Assembly: GCA_903858935.1 (NCBI GenBank)
Contig: CAIOKO010000140.1
Location: 1 to 64,000 of the forward strand
DNA length: 64,000 nt
Source of the DNA: an uncultured Schlesneria sp.
GTDB taxonomy: Bacteria > Planctomycetota > Planctomycetia > Planctomycetales > Planctomycetaceae
Direction: 5' to 3'
Shown here: piece after piece, positions 21,834 to 31,660 of the stretch
Layout of the letters: every line of letters begins with the position of its first letter
Position numbering within the stretch: position 1 is the stretch's first letter
Made by a program: the position numbers and the translations under genes
The notes under the pieces: model-generated
The model's database searches: none
What the model was told of the DNA's origin: nothing
The model's input: only the letters and a program-made list of their open reading frames with translations

Positions 21834-21880
21834 GTGACCAAGCTCCAGATTGGTCACGCAACTCTTCGAAGCTCTGCTGC
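21834..21880 (+). repeat. Dispersed hairpin repeat, copy 1
   Basis: Hairpin GTGACCAA/TTGGTCAC followed by CGCAACTCTTCGAAGCTCTGC. It matches two other copies at 30473-30525 and 30591-30644 in the order CCAAGCTCCAG, TTGG, then CTTCGAAGCTC. The surrounding 374-base gap (21642-22015) has no gene that I can support. Confidence 0.7.
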
Positions 21881-25056: not shown

Positions 25057-27414
25057 TTACCGAGTCGGTCTACGAAACAGCCGCTCCACGTTCATCAATT
25101 GTTTGGTGTCAAACTCTTTCCCTTTCAGTGTAGCGAACTTTTTCAGCTGATCCTTCGTCAGCAGCGCCATGACCTTTTCATTCTGTTCAGTTGTCAGTTT
25201 GGCCAGCACCTCACGCGGATCTGCGTTTCCAACAGGCTGAGGAGTTGGTTGAAGTTGAGCGTTTTTCAATTCGCGATAGTGATTCAAAACAGCCTCGATA
25301 TGCTGCTTCTGCTCGCCTGCGATTCCCAAAGCTTCGATGACTTCGGCCTCGGCAATCGCTGATGACTCAATCGCCTGCCAGTAAATCTGTTGTAAACGTT
25401 GATACTGTTCCAAAGAGATCGTGGCTTTCAGTTGCGGCAGGAACTCAGCAGTTTTGGTGTTCCATAACTCCGTCATTTTCGCAAGCTCCTGCTGACGTCC
25501 CTCTGCCGTTTGACCAGGGAACGGCATGATTCCGAATGGAGGCATCGCTGCCTCCTGATAAGTCACCTTACCTCCGCTATTACTTCGGATCAGGCGAATC
25601 CGAAACCCTCCGCCCGCTTGAACCCAGGACTTGCCAAACTGTTGTCTGATTTCAAGGACCTTGGCAATGACCTCTTGATTTAGACCCAGATCCGCCTGGA
25701 CCTCCGGGATGATCAGTAATGAAAAGATCCCATCCCCTCCGCCGGTATTTCCCTGATTGATCATGCCGGCGATTCGACGTCCCGACGGGGCGATACCACC
25801 CGGTTGTCCGCCACCAGGACCAACGATCGGTTGCCCGTCTGGTCCCAACTGCGGACGCATGTGTCGTGGGCTGGTCAGATCCAGCGTGCGTACTTCGTTA
25901 AGATCAATGGGTTTCCCTTTCATTGCGGCAAATTGATCGAGTTGCGCTTTCGTCAGTACTTCATCGATTTTCGATTCATATTCACTCACCAGTCCTGCGA
26001 CTTTTTCTCGGACTCCGTCAGGCGCCGCAAGATCTTCGGCGTTGGGACGGGGTCGTGATGCCTCAAGCAGCGCCAGTCGCTTCACCTGAAAATCCTCGGT
26101 GATCGCTTCGATCTTAACCTGCTGTTCTTGAGTGATCCTCAGTGCTTCAATCACTTCCGGTTCAAAATAGGCTGCCGTCCCGATCGCCTGAAAGTGAATC
26201 TGTTTCAACCGACTGAACTGTTCCGCCGTCAGAACTTGTTTGAGTTCTGGCAGGTACCTGGCGATCACAATATTCCACTGCCCGAAATCCCAATCGGGTG
26301 GTGTCGGTTCATTGAATGAAACGGTCCGACCATCGGCCAGCCTGACGTGGGTTCCCTGCCAAGACCCAAGCAACCCACCGGAGACGCCCCGAGCTGCAAA
26401 AAATCCATTCCAGACCGCTTCGATCCTTTTTGTCACCTCATCGCTTAAACCCAGTTCCTTCTGAACGGCATGGTTGATGGCCAGTTGAACCATCGAGCCT
26501 CCTGCACCAAACCATCCGAACGTTCGTCGGGGCCCGCGAGAAGTCAGCTTCGTCAGATCAAACGGTTTCCCTTCGAGCGTGGTCAGCTTATCCTGCTGTT
26601 CTTTCGTCAGAATCGCCCTGGCCTTTTGATCCCGTTCCTGAAGCGATTGTTGATACTTGACGAACGAGACCCCGGTACGCTTCATCAACTGTTCTGGCAT
26701 TAAATACTCGATATTGATCGCCCCAATCTGCTTGACCTGATCCGCAGTGAGTTCCAGGCTTTTCAACAAATCGCGATCATGGATCAACGCCTCGGAACCA
26801 TAGACTTGCCGGGCGATTTGGTGGAGTCGTTCGAGTTGCTCGGGTGTGAAAACCGCTATGATCTGCGGGATGAACGTCTCGTCAGCCTTTTTGATCGGGG
26901 CTATTCTTTCGATAAATCGTTTTTCTCGCTCTTCGGGCGACATTCCCCGTAGTTTTTCTATCTCTTGGCGGTCTAATCGACCGCCCTGACTGTTTCTGTT
27001 CGCATCCAGTTCGTGGCAGTATTGTTCAATCAGGCTGTGAACCTTGATGGAACTGGCGTTGTCGAGACCGACCTCATTGCGAACCGCTTGTTGAGCGGCG
27101 ACAAAAAAGATTCCTCCCTCTTTACCAATCAGGATCTGCCGTCCCCCTTCTCGATAAGCCAGCCCCGAAGCGGGTTCCGTCGCCGTACCCGGTTTGGCAG
27201 CCTCCTGAGCAAACAACGCGGAACCGTCTGCGATCATCCAAACCAGTGCGACGACAAATCCAGCAACGAGTCTTCGCGGTCCGTCCTTGTGTGACACTGG
27301 CAAGCTTCTTCGCTCGCCTGTCCTCTTGGAGGCGGAAGTTGGGTTCAATAGCAAACAGAACGGCGGGCTGAAGCAACCGACCGTCACACCGGGTGAACCA
27401 GTTCCTCTTTGCAT
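25057..27414 (-). CDS. Large exported protein with three internal repeats
   Basis: A 785-residue protein of unrecognised family. The long, basic N-terminus leads to a hydrophobic segment and a cleavage-like site near ALFAQE, a common look for planctomycete leaders. The rest has three similar units at about 105-305, 315-530 and 575-780. Each has an LGL-like helix start, a segment like SLEQYQRLQQIYWQAIES or its variants, and ends with an LTKxQ motif plus a GKxFD or GKPID strand. The short LTxEQxxKL motifs resemble those of Spy/CpxP-type periplasmic helpers, but three long repeats are not usual for them. AAGGA lies eight bases before the ATG at 27414. Function unknown. Confidence 0.7.
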   Translation of the reverse strand: MQRGTGSPGVTVGCFSPPFCLLLNPTSASKRTGERRSLPVSHKDGPRRLVAGFVVALVWMIADGSALFAQEAAKPGTATEPASGLAYREGGRQILIGKEGGIFFVAAQQAVRNEVGLDNASSIKVHSLIEQYCHELDANRNSQGGRLDRQEIEKLRGMSPEEREKRFIERIAPIKKADETFIPQIIAVFTPEQLERLHQIARQVYGSEALIHDRDLLKSLELTADQVKQIGAINIEYLMPEQLMKRTGVSFVKYQQSLQERDQKARAILTKEQQDKLTTLEGKPFDLTKLTSRGPRRTFGWFGAGGSMVQLAINHAVQKELGLSDEVTKRIEAVWNGFFAARGVSGGLLGSWQGTHVRLADGRTVSFNEPTPPDWDFGQWNIVIARYLPELKQVLTAEQFSRLKQIHFQAIGTAAYFEPEVIEALRITQEQQVKIEAITEDFQVKRLALLEASRPRPNAEDLAAPDGVREKVAGLVSEYESKIDEVLTKAQLDQFAAMKGKPIDLNEVRTLDLTSPRHMRPQLGPDGQPIVGPGGGQPGGIAPSGRRIAGMINQGNTGGGDGIFSLLIIPEVQADLGLNQEVIAKVLEIRQQFGKSWVQAGGGFRIRLIRSNSGGKVTYQEAAMPPFGIMPFPGQTAEGRQQELAKMTELWNTKTAEFLPQLKATISLEQYQRLQQIYWQAIESSAIAEAEVIEALGIAGEQKQHIEAVLNHYRELKNAQLQPTPQPVGNADPREVLAKLTTEQNEKVMALLTKDQLKKFATLKGKEFDTKQLMNVERLFRRPTR

Positions 27415-27623: not shown

Positions 27624-28484
27624 TCAGAAGTCACCGATCGGTTCGCCACCGGCACGACTGATCAGCGCCTGAAACACGTTGCTGTCGATATTCTCGTTGA
27701 CGAACTTCGTGCTGCCATCGGAGAGTGAGAAATGCGATCCGCCGATGTGCGGACTGGAGAATTGAAACACAGTTTCACAGCAAGACGAAGGGCGATTGAA
27801 TCCCGCCGCAGCGCAGGTCGTTGTGGCAGCTGCGGTCCAGCGGAGCACCGAACGTGAATAACCCTGACTCCCTCCTGCACCGGGGCAACTTGTGCAGCTG
27901 TTACACGACCCTCGCGCCCAACCACGAATTTCCGCAGCGATTTCGCCAGTAAAAATCGTGTTCGAGGTTCCGTCGGTGATATCGCGGAATCGAACGGACG
28001 AGACGGGAAAAAAAATGCCGTTGTTGACCCCGGGTGTGGTTCCGGCATTTCCTGCGTAATGGCTGAAACCGAATTTGGTGTCGATGACACCTTCCTTCGT
28101 TTGTGAAGCGCACTTGTAGGCGGGGATCAATGCAATCACATTGGTTGCATTAATGACGTTATCGAACGCGACGTTGAAGTTGTACTGATTGTAGAGCGGT
28201 GTTTGATCAGCGAACGGCAAAATCAATGTCTGCCATGTCGTCAATTGATTTGTGTTGGAAGATGTTCCCGAAGTCCCCAGCACACCAAATGGAAACGTAC
28301 CATACGTTGATTCATAGTTGTGAAGTGCGAGGGCAATTTGTTTCAAGTTGTTTTTGCACTGGGAACGACGGGCAGCTTCGCGTGCTTGCTGCACGGCGGG
28401 CAATAGGAGAGCAATCAAAATCGCAATGATCGCAATCACCACAAGCAGTTCGATTAAAGTAAAACCTTTGCGGCGTGGGTTCAT
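27624..28484 (-). CDS. DUF1559 pseudopilin-like protein
   Basis: A 286-residue protein with a type IV prepilin-type N-terminus: [19 protein letters not shown], with the G/FTLIE cleavage site, followed by [12 protein letters not shown] and the DUF1559 domain ([18 protein letters not shown]). The C-terminus has the family's HxGG...DGS pattern ([15 protein letters not shown]) and [13 protein letters not shown]. Planctomycetes carry dozens of these; they are thought to be exported pseudopilin-like proteins, but function is not established. It lies 21 bases downstream of the TiaS-like gene on the same strand, which may be chance. Confidence 0.93.
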
Positions 28485-28505: not shown

Positions 28506-29213
28506 CTAAGGCAGCTTCAAGGCCGTAAATGTACTTGTCCCGGATTCCGTGAAGCTGCGGCGGGCGAAAACAACGGCCTGTTGCAAGCAAAAATTGGGAC
28601 GCAGATGTTTACCGACGTCGATCAGACCAGTCGGAATGTCGGCGCCGGTGTCGTAGTCCCGCACCACAATTTCACGTTGGTGAATGGCTGCGATCGATTG
28701 CACTCCGGAAAGGTCGTCCGGCCACGATTTCCATTGGATGATTCGACCGTCGTCTCCTGTGATTGCCAAACCGACCGCAGCCAGTGCTCCGATGACGCCC
28801 CCTTCAGTTCCACCCAGCCCTTCGAGATGAATTCCATGATGGGCAGCTAACTGGCGCGGCTGCTCCTGATTGACAATCTCTTGCTGGCATCGCCTGCCGA
28901 AATCCCGCACCGAATCGGGAATCATCTCGGCCATGCACAACCCGGGATCGCTGCCAACAACGTACCATTCCTGCATGGTATGACGGCACAATTCGAGCAA
29001 TTGCGATGGTTCTGCGTTGCCGATCGGTTCAAACATCATCGATGCCGAACCATTGTGAGATGTATACGGAATGCGCGAATCGAACAGCAGCTGATGACGC
29101 AGAATCCTGTGGCACCGCCAGCGGTCGGCAGCGCGACGGACGATTTCTCGAGCCAGGTAATTAGTACCTCGGGTCTCAATTGTGTCTGTGTCATCAATGC
29201 CAACAAAGATCAT
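28506..29213 (-). CDS. TiaS-like domain protein
   Basis: A 235-residue protein opening with GIDDTDTIETRGTNYLAREI, the acidic start of the N-terminal ferredoxin-like domain of TiaS (tRNA-Ile2 agmatidine synthetase), and continuing through VGSDPGLCM and GLGGTEGGVIGALAAVGLA. In archaea TiaS modifies a tRNA wobble cytidine, but this protein lacks the kinase-like and zinc-binding parts of the full enzyme, so that reaction is unlikely. Similar stand-alone proteins occur in bacteria with H4MPT one-carbon pathways, an association I recall but cannot confirm here. Its ATG overlaps the stop of the membrane gene upstream (ATGA), so translation is coupled. Confidence 0.65.
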   Translation of the reverse strand: MIFVGIDDTDTIETRGTNYLAREIVRRAADRWRCHRILRHQLLFDSRIPYTSHNGSASMMFEPIGNAEPSQLLELCRHTMQEWYVVGSDPGLCMAEMIPDSVRDFGRRCQQEIVNQEQPRQLAAHHGIHLEGLGGTEGGVIGALAAVGLAITGDDGRIIQWKSWPDDLSGVQSIAAIHQREIVVRDYDTGADIPTGLIDVGKHLRPNFCLQQAVVFARRSFTESGTSTFTALKLP

Positions 29214-29848
29214 TCCGGCCGCTCCTGCGGCAAATTCTCATCGCGGCGCGACCGGAATGAAAACAATACGATGCCGCTGATCAATCCTGCGATCAAACCG
29301 CACAAAATATAAGTTCCAACCGCTTGCGACAGCCATTCAACGAGAGGCCGACGACCCGCCGCTTCCCAACCGAGTGCCTTGGCGCCGCCGCGAACGCCCA
29401 GCGCCAACAGGTTGCTCGCCAGCCCAGCGAGTGAGAAAGCAACATATTGCCGCCATCCGCTGTTGGCGCGGCGAAGAGTCCAATCCAACAGTGGCCCTGT
29501 GGCGGTCAAGCTGGTAAATGCCCCCAGACCGACCGCTTCGCCGCGAAACCCGACAAGTTGAAAACAGACTGCCGTGATGGCCGCCGTGCCACCCATCACG
29601 CAGCCGGCCCCTCGTCGCGGAACTAGAGCCAATCCCAATGCCATCGGAAAAACGACCCGCAGGATGGCGTGACCGGGAATGCGTTTAATACCGAGATCGA
29701 GAAATGTTGAAGAACAGGCCGCCAGCACCCCAAACGCCGCCAGCAAAAACCAGTCGCGCGCGGTGGCCGAAGTCGCGCCCGTCGCGAGTTGGCGCAACCG
29801 CGTGGTGGAGCAAAGGCCGGGATGTCGAGGCAGAAACGACGCAGACAT
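29210..29848 (-). CDS. Membrane protein coupled to the TiaS-like gene
   Basis: About 212 residues from an ATG at 29848 (a start at 29890 adds 14). Five or six hydrophobic stretches are visible, among them FLLAAFGVLAACSSTFLDL and GTYILCGLIAGLISGIVLF, and the tail is charged (RSRRDENLPQERPE). It is reminiscent of small substrate-binding subunits of ECF-type transporters, but no specific family is recognised. Its stop overlaps the start of the TiaS-like gene in ATGA, so the two proteins are probably made in fixed ratio and may act together. The molecule it moves is unknown. Confidence 0.6.
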   Translation of the reverse strand: MSASFLPRHPGLCSTTRLRQLATGATSATARDWFLLAAFGVLAACSSTFLDLGIKRIPGHAILRVVFPMALGLALVPRRGAGCVMGGTAAITAVCFQLVGFRGEAVGLGAFTSLTATGPLLDWTLRRANSGWRQYVAFSLAGLASNLLALGVRGGAKALGWEAAGRRPLVEWLSQAVGTYILCGLIAGLISGIVLFSFRSRRDENLPQERPE

Positions 29849-29996
29849 TAGGACCTGCCTGTGGTTTTCAAGGGTGAAAGAGCGAGCCAAGCGGCCACAA
29901 AAGCAAATTGCAAAGTTGTACCATTTGCGGGTTAAGTCTAAGTCGTGAAATCGTGGAGTTCAAGCCAGACAGGGCATTGAGAACACATCGACGAAG

Positions 29997-30472: not shown

Positions 30473-30525
30473 CCTCGTTGCCAAGCTCCAGCTTGGTAAT
30501 ACAAGTCTTCGAATCTCTGCTTCGC
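30473..30525 (+). repeat. Dispersed hairpin repeat, copy 2
   Basis: CCTCGTTG then CCAAGC/GCTTGG hairpin (30481-30496), then CTTCGAATCTCTGCTTCGC. It is the same design as copies at 21834 and 30591 and lies upstream of the exported hydrolase. Confidence 0.75.
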
Positions 30526-30590: not shown

Positions 30591-30644
30591 CCTCGTTACC
30601 AAGTTCCAGCTTGGGATCGCAACTCCTCGAAGCTCCGCTTCGCG
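30591..30644 (+). repeat. Dispersed hairpin repeat, copy 3
   Basis: CCTCGTTACC, then AAGTTCCAGCTTGGGA, then CGCAACTCCTCGAAGCTCC and GCTTCGCGG. It stands 118 bases after copy 2 in the same orientation. The sequence between copies 2 and 3 holds no gene. Confidence 0.75.
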
Positions 30645-30706
30645 GCCCGCGAGTCACTTGCGACCCGATCGAAGCGTTAAATACAACCCCCGGACAAGGA
30701 TTTAAA

Positions 30707-31660
30707 ATGAAGCATATAGCCCCGCTGTTGTCTCTTGCATTCTGTCTCTGCCTGACCAACCCTGTATTCAGCACAGACACCCCGGCAATGGTCGTGGAGC
30801 TCTGGCCGGATTACGTTCCCGACGAGAAACCAGGACTATTCGGTCCGGAAAAAGTGGTTATGTCGCCGAAATTGGACGTGAGTCAGGTCGAAGTGACCGA
30901 ATCCACCCGCATGATCACCAACGTCACAAAACCAACGATCACGATCTATCGTCCCGCGAAAGAGAAGGACACCGGCACGGCAATGTTGATTTGTCCTGGC
31001 GGTGGCTACTGGAACCTGTACTGGGAACTGGAAGGAGAAGAAGTCGCCACCTGGCTGAACAGCATCGGGGTGACCGGCATCATACTGAAGTATAGAGTCC
31101 CCCGTCGGCCTGATGAACCGAAGGCTGAACCCGCCCGTCGCCCGCTTCAAGACTCGCAGCGAGCGATGAGCCTGGTCCGAAGCAAAGCCAAAGACTGGGA
31201 CATCAATCCCGATCGAATCGGCATCATCGGCTTCTCAGCAGGTGGCCATCTCGCTATCGCCACGGCAATAAAATTCGACGAGCGTTCTTACACACCACAA
31301 GATGAAATTGACAAAATCAGTTGCCGCCCCAACTTTGCCGTCATGGCCTATTCCGGTTATCTCAAGAACAAAGACAAGGATCAACTCGCCCCTGGACTGA
31401 GTATCCCCAAAGAGACGCCGCCGGTCTTTCTCGTTCACGGCGGCAGCGATCTGATCAGCCCTCCCGAGCACAGCGTGATGATGTACCTCGCCCTGAAACG
31501 AGCCGGCATCCCGGCAGAATTACATGTCTACGCCAATACCGCTCACGACTTCGCCATCCGCCCCGGCGACCGCCCGTTTTCGACCTGGCCACAGTCATGT
31601 GCCGCCTGGTTGCGACAACAGGGGTTTCTCGCGACCGACAGAGTAGAACTAAAAAACTGA
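30707..31660 (+). CDS. Exported alpha/beta hydrolase (esterase type)
   Basis: A 317-residue protein with a signal peptide ending near FSTDT. The hydrolase core is BD-FAE/esterase-like: oxyanion region CPGGGYWNLYW, nucleophile elbow GFSAGGHLA, acid in HGGSDLISPPEHS and histidine in ANTAHDFAIRP. All three triad residues are present. Related planctomycete proteins are grouped with carbohydrate esterases, so deacetylation of polysaccharide is a fair guess. AAGGA lies seven bases before the ATG at 30707. An intrinsic terminator follows about 100 bases after the stop. Confidence 0.85.
   Translation: MKHIAPLLSLAFCLCLTNPVFSTDTPAMVVELWPDYVPDEKPGLFGPEKVVMSPKLDVSQVEVTESTRMITNVTKPTITIYRPAKEKDTGTAMLICPGGGYWNLYWELEGEEVATWLNSIGVTGIILKYRVPRRPDEPKAEPARRPLQDSQRAMSLVRSKAKDWDINPDRIGIIGFSAGGHLAIATAIKFDERSYTPQDEIDKISCRPNFAVMAYSGYLKNKDKDQLAPGLSIPKETPPVFLVHGGSDLISPPEHSVMMYLALKRAGIPAELHVYANTAHDFAIRPGDRPFSTWPQSCAAWLRQQGFLATDRVELKN

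Follow-up and report, generated by a model that had tools for sequence, protein, structure and literature searches.

The closest described arrangement to the locus considered here is that of BtuM and BtuR, in which the gene of a solitary S component adjoins that of an ATP-using enzyme; the pertinent passages of the report propose that this enzyme traps the cargo (PMC6072759). Another relevant group of proteins is DUF1559, with 68 paralogs in P. limnophila, which an extract of one source presents as a large planctomycete group of unknown function (PMC10632474) and an extract of another names as a solute-binding family (PMC2754498). The remaining points of comparison are TiaS, the tRNA(Ile2) agmatidine synthetase, methanogenesis marker protein 11 (TIGR03280) and the regulator ModE. 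A literature search, with most subscription journals outside its scope, found no description of the present unit in titles or abstracts, and searches on marker protein 11 and on the TiaS kinase domain (TCKD) together with TiaS returned nothing.

The window is a stretch of 64,000 nucleotides from an uncultured Schlesneria sp. (genome G000). On its minus strand, the order of transcription is a ModE-like HTH gene, a membrane gene, a TiaS-domain gene and a DUF1559 pilin-like gene (Table 1). The membrane ORF, which encodes six helices, begins with an ATG at 29848 and stops at 29210-29212, sharing an ATGA with the TiaS-like ORF, which begins with an ATG at 29213 and stops at 28506-28508. A script could place the overlap at 16 loci; it measures 4 bp at 13 of them and deviates at L013, L014 and L033. 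The four genes are regarded as real because their dN/dS values against a 90%-identical relative (G005) are low: ~0.08 for the TCKD gene, 0.08 for the membrane gene, 0.09 for the pilin gene and 0.16 for the ModE-like gene. The sequence-only reading had described the ATGA overlap (28506-29848) and an upstream ModE-like regulator lacking a molybdate domain, and both descriptions hold; no Pfam or NCBIfam match to the Mop molybdate-binding domain was found in the 153-aa protein. That the regulator belongs to the unit is likewise supported, by the conserved pairing, a common upstream element and a subfamily almost confined to carriers. The "small undescribed unit" put forward in that reading survives as to the pairing and the common element, and was drawn too small, with the fourth gene left out.

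Table 1. Features of the module in the window, with positions counted from its first nucleotide.
Feature	Position	Strand	Remarks
Stand-alone TCKD (TiaS kinase-domain) enzyme, 235 aa	28506..29213	-	residues 1-~155 TCKD, plus conserved C-terminal beta-rich part
Membrane protein, 212 aa, motif PGHAIL	29210..29848	-	predicted ECF S-component fold; 4-bp ATGA overlap with TCKD gene
ModE-like single-domain regulator, 153 aa	29997..30458	-	HTH only, without Mop domain
DUF1559 / N-methyl pilin-like surface protein, specific subfamily	27624..28484	-	CxxCxxCPGAGGS replaces poly-Gly in the window's clade
Putative operator, 28 bp	29899..29926	-	5' of membrane gene; common to relatives and unlinked pilin genes; position placed by hand

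Three further features of the window were recorded around the module. Upstream of it lies a hydrolase-like ORF (30611-31660), a possible further partner, with a 44%-identical homologue directly 3' of the pilin gene in G008 (L020 9059-10087). A 785-aa ORF at 25057-27414 is apparently internally repetitive and is 72% identical in G005, where it adjoins the same module. The REP-like palindrome CAAGCTCCAGCTTGG occurs in three copies within 1 mismatch (21839-21853, 30482-30496 and 30600-30614), against 0.02 expected.

Given the BtuM-BtuR arrangement and the naming of DUF1559 as a solute-binding family, capture, passage and ATP trapping under ModE-like control are proposed. In this tentative reading, to which slightly less than an even chance is assigned, the four genes would form one regulated unit for the uptake of a small molecule and its trapping with ATP. 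The ModE-like protein would bind the 28-bp upstream element, and the DUF1559 protein would capture a solute outside the cell. The solitary S-type membrane protein would pass this solute without an ECF motor, and the TCKD enzyme would then use ATP to keep the molecule inside, by phosphorylating it or activating it in another way. Co-inheritance and the common element are observations, while transport and chemistry are what we infer. As in BtuM-BtuR, so far as the pertinent passages describe it, the gene of a solitary S-type membrane protein stands beside that of an ATP-using enzyme; the window differs in having a TCKD protein in place of the adenosyltransferase BtuR, together with an extra surface protein and a ModE-like regulator. 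The leading guess for the cargo is a molybdenum-cofactor-related or other pterin- or nucleobase-like compound. A catalytic domain known from one archaeal tRNA enzyme is found here in bacteria, in company with a vitamin-importer-like membrane protein, a surface protein and a regulator of its own.

The TCKD protein was detected in 9 of 59 relatives, the window's own genome counted, and in 8 of 392 phylum genomes, and the membrane profile returned the same 8 planctomycete genomes. The two genes are adjacent in 18 of the 19 planctomycete loci read (15 genomes and four further contigs, with a fifth contig, L010, equal in length to G005:C177 and taken as identical with it); at the 19th, G030, the contig stops inside the TCKD gene. 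Distances within the two families are correlated (r 0.87 over 105 pairs from 15 loci), a value to which shared ancestry contributes too. The additional contig search yielded 5 loci through exact peptides of one sequence, so that distant members are undersampled.

Beyond the planctomycetes, a tblastn search of plasmids placed the TCKD family in Natribaculum (2) and Pimelobacter (1) only, and a search of viral contigs found no relative. On the two Natribaculum megaplasmids, the TCKD gene neighbours an importer of BtuCDF type, with PF01497 as its substrate-binding protein; both species retain this block, although the order of others in the stretch has changed. On a 3.8-kb plasmid of Pimelobacter simplex, the TCKD gene is divergent from a PGH-motif membrane gene and overlaps a lipoprotein-like gene; used as a query against the plasmids, the Pimelobacter membrane protein matched itself only. 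The importer in two haloarchaea and the PGH-motif gene on an actinobacterial plasmid suggest a link to transport beyond the planctomycetes. The TCKD gene of the Natribaculum luteum plasmid (L046 11950-12708) is missing from the gene table of the plasmid collection, yet it has an open frame, with 92% identity to that of N. longum.

The enzyme itself matches Pfam TiaS_TCKD over residues 3-129 with 34.1 bits (cut-off 27), and the Pfam search of the protein returned none of the other TiaS domains. The full-length TiaS equivalog NF040849 scores 35.9 bits against a cut-off of 600 (E 3.1e-9), over residues 1-150 only of the 235. The best NCBIfam match is methanogenesis marker protein 11 (E 1.1e-12, residues 2-150), yet the first 134 positions of that model are unmatched and the score of 47.6 bits compares with a cut-off of 255.8. 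An AlphaFold2 model built on 12 aligned sequences (pLDDT 87.6) shows a compact soluble domain without a long hydrophobic helix, and it resembles TiaS in both Foldseek (E 1.1e-8) and VIA (Z 20.9, 149 residues, 1.8 A). The GIDDTD motif is retained and the ATP-site motifs are present. In the alignment, T17 is the counterpart of Thr18 of TiaS; the T17 and DDTD columns are invariant in the 12 aligned sequences. The protein had initially been described as only the N-terminal domain of TiaS: the domain is borne out by Pfam and the model, and in addition there is a conserved C-terminal part of its own (residues 156-235). Planctomycetes conserve these ~80 residues, and they can still be recognised in the relatives from Actinobacteria (Pimelobacter) and haloarchaea (Natribaculum), from which it follows that the proteins are a distinct two-part family rather than truncated TiaS.

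The likeness to TiaS in fold, GIDDTD motif and Thr18 equivalent could also mean that the protein is a TiaS-like tRNA-modification enzyme whose gene adjoins the membrane gene by chance, and the ATP-site motifs would fit such a role. This is held to be very improbable. The protein is much shorter than TiaS (~420 aa) and has no other TiaS domain by Pfam, and its occurrence in so few relatives and the overlap at 13 of 16 loci also speak against this reading. Further differences from TiaS are its bacterial origin, its own C-terminal part and the pairing of its gene with a membrane gene.

The membrane protein likely, though not certainly, has the fold of an ECF S component, as judged from its model, which is of moderate quality (pLDDT 77). 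In Foldseek, ranks 1-7 are all ECF S components, TmRibU being the best at E 0.024, with none at E 0.001. In VIA, whose lists exclude no fold family, 14 S-component entries come first (TmRibU: Z 11.3, 161 residues, 3.4 A), followed by pMMO subunit B at Z 9.0. The Z of 11.3 falls below the ~13 that VIA advises for helical bundles, in which arrangement alone can reach 13. The pLDDT, this shortfall and the pMMO match all weigh against the uptake model. No Pfam match to S-component families was found among 12 members of the membrane-protein family. The T component (EcfT/CbiQ, PF02361) is absent from three of the nine carriers, G018, G029 and G031, the first of which is a single-contig genome, so that the membrane protein is at most a solitary S-type protein. 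The window's genome has a single T component, adjoining CbiM- and CbiO-like ORFs (named by eye).

The DUF1559 protein exceeds the cut-offs for both PF07596 (DUF1559 / SBP_bac_10; 179.8 bits) and an N-methyl pilin start, features that it shares with the planctomycete DUF1559 proteins. The genes downstream of the pair belong to one subfamily with GGWARG-(Gly-rich)-GFARG, set apart from other DUF1559 proteins by a poly-Gly or Cys loop and, among the 59 relatives, restricted to carriers of the unit. Of its 14 members, 11 have the poly-Gly version of the loop; the other three, which make up the window's clade, have the Cys version. The 9 of 59 relatives recovered with the subfamily profile are precisely those that carry the unit, six with the gene linked and three with it unlinked (G010, G013 and G018, the sequences of which had been left out of the profile that found them). 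Scores were 505-523 bits in G000, G010 and G018, and no further DUF1559 gene of these genomes or of G001 scored above 243. Across the phylum sample, the subfamily was found in 5 of 392 genomes, all within the 8 carriers; it was absent from G414, G122 and G201, absences that are weaker as 6 candidates per genome were scored there, against 40 among the 59 relatives. These three carriers, which have genes for other surface proteins in the vicinity, are a point against uptake. One defined DUF1559 subfamily tied to defined partners makes its function directly testable.

The same co-occurrence raises a second explanation, that the TCKD enzyme and the membrane protein modify the loop of this pilin and import no solute. 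The TCKD gene, the membrane gene and a single DUF1559 subfamily occur together, and the loop of that subfamily (GGWARG-polyGly-GFARG or CxxCxxC) is missing, as is GWARG itself, from all 18 next-best paralogs that could be read among 20 retrieved (2 unreadable). Where the pilin is missing, other surface-protein genes lie near the pair, PEP-CTERM and prepilin in L033 and a beta-propeller in L032 (prepilin and propeller named by eye). The poly-Gly of the L032 propeller and that of the Pimelobacter lipoprotein-like ORF may be due to chance. Pilin modification is nevertheless considered unlikely: an S-type fold indicates small ligands, the TCKD model is that of a compact soluble protein with no long hydrophobic helix, and both Natribaculum species carry the enzyme by an ABC importer instead. 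As a separate observation, two distant planctomycetes have a PEP-CTERM/DNRLRE-type surface gene 5' of the pair (L033 574-2033 and L013 4547-5311).

Under the preferred uptake reading, expression would be governed by the ModE-like protein. Its ORF matches TIGR00637 at E 1.7e-14 and resembles ModE in the N-terminal DNA-binding domain, for which scores of 53.7 (this ORF) and 56.2 bits stay below a cut-off of 98.5; the difference from ModE is the missing Mop domain. Among the 59 relatives, strong matches to the subfamily were confined to the carriers G000, G005, G010 and G013; the 5 other carriers had none, and one weak match (2.6e-15) fell in a non-carrier. Strong presence in only 4 of 9 carriers counts against the uptake model as well. 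The unlinked pilin gene of G010 has the ModE-like gene immediately 5' of it, and the cluster of the distant L033 begins with a ModE-like stretch.

For a candidate operator, the first palindrome scan was an unguided one over 12 regions. The unlinked promoters of the S-like and pilin genes of G010 have TTGCAC-N4-GTGCAA in common, with 25 of 28 bases matching. Compared with this G010 element, the window site matches at 23 of 28 bases (0/500 shuffles), and the sites of G005, L012 and L014 at 19 (0.002), 18 (0/500) and 17 (0.03), respectively. G013 gave 18 for its membrane gene (0.006) and 19 for its pilin gene (0/500), and the mobA region of G010 gave 0.004; the remaining S-like or pilin regions, out of 28 regions tried, were no better than 0.088. 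A leave-one-genome-out matrix run against 2,532 background stretches gave p 0.0004-0.0024 for eight sites, a test that is partly circular, as its training sites were chosen for their similarity to the element of the G010 pilin gene, and the single-query shuffle test is the cleaner one. The element is borderline (~0.004) in G029 and G414, neither of which shows a ModE-like gene at the locus, and is not above background in L011 although a ModE-like gene is present there. Nor does it exceed background 5' of the ModE-like genes themselves, and it is at best borderline at mobA (p 0.0063 in G010, 0.066 in W, 0.11 in G013). Where a ModE-like gene exists, one upstream element is mostly common to the membrane gene and, if it is unlinked, the pilin gene, and for this reason the membrane, TCKD, pilin and ModE-like genes are probably one regulon, to judge from these sites. 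The putative site differs from the ModE box of E. coli.

A dedicated regulator in the module would also suit a sensory unit, in which the S-type protein would act as the receptor and the ModE-like protein would respond to a signal that the TCKD enzyme produces or uses up. S-component folds are found in sensor kinases, according to an extract of one source (PMC11109136). With 5 of 9 carriers lacking a strong ModE-like match, a sensory role is quite doubtful.

Molybdenum is hinted at by several of these features, not proven. In G010, mobA is the gene immediately 5' of the membrane gene, and in G013 it overlaps the ModE-like gene by 4 bp and is divergent from fhcC (TIGR03122, 5.8e-78); these physical links come from two genomes. 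In the window's genome, mobA is apart, on C225, by fhcC- and xanthine-dehydrogenase-like ORFs (named by eye). Since mobA (57/59), moaA (58/59) and mch (56/59) are near-universal among the relatives, their distribution gives no means of tying them to the unit. The suggestion of a molybdenum tie in the sequence-only reading thus keeps the regulator and the mobA adjacency in its favor and gains no co-occurrence signal from mobA or moaA, whereas the suggested tie to one-carbon chemistry finds no support in co-occurrence with mch, the unit being in 9 of 59 relatives. That the unit serves H4MPT/methanofuran chemistry is accordingly rated highly improbable, even though mobA, linked to unit parts in G010 and G013, adjoins fhcC in four genomes (G013, and by eye also G000, G001 and G008). 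A further point against it is that FhcC in G000 also adjoins a xanthine-dehydrogenase-like gene (by eye).

A specific form of the uptake reading, itself rather unlikely, is the salvage of a molybdenum-cofactor-type pterin. The S-type protein would import a dephosphorylated molybdopterin-like compound, the TCKD enzyme would re-phosphorylate it, and the product would be used by MobA, whose gene is adjacent in G010 and G013, under a ModE-derived regulator. With moaA in 58 of 59 relatives, a missing de novo pathway, and hence obligate salvage, is unsupported. If this form were correct, the enzyme would, to our knowledge, be without precedent as a free-standing kinase of small molecules with a TiaS fold. 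A pilot search for FdhD (PF02634) in the window's own genome found none.

The pairing of mobA with fhcC was itself recorded in G000, G001, G008 and G013 (L068, L069 and L070, and C225 of G000 as L076 5537-11601), with the genes of all but L068 named by eye. On C225, xanthine-dehydrogenase-like and XdhC-like genes (by eye) lie near mobA and fhcC, and a possible binding of a metal pterin by planctomycete Fhc merits attention.
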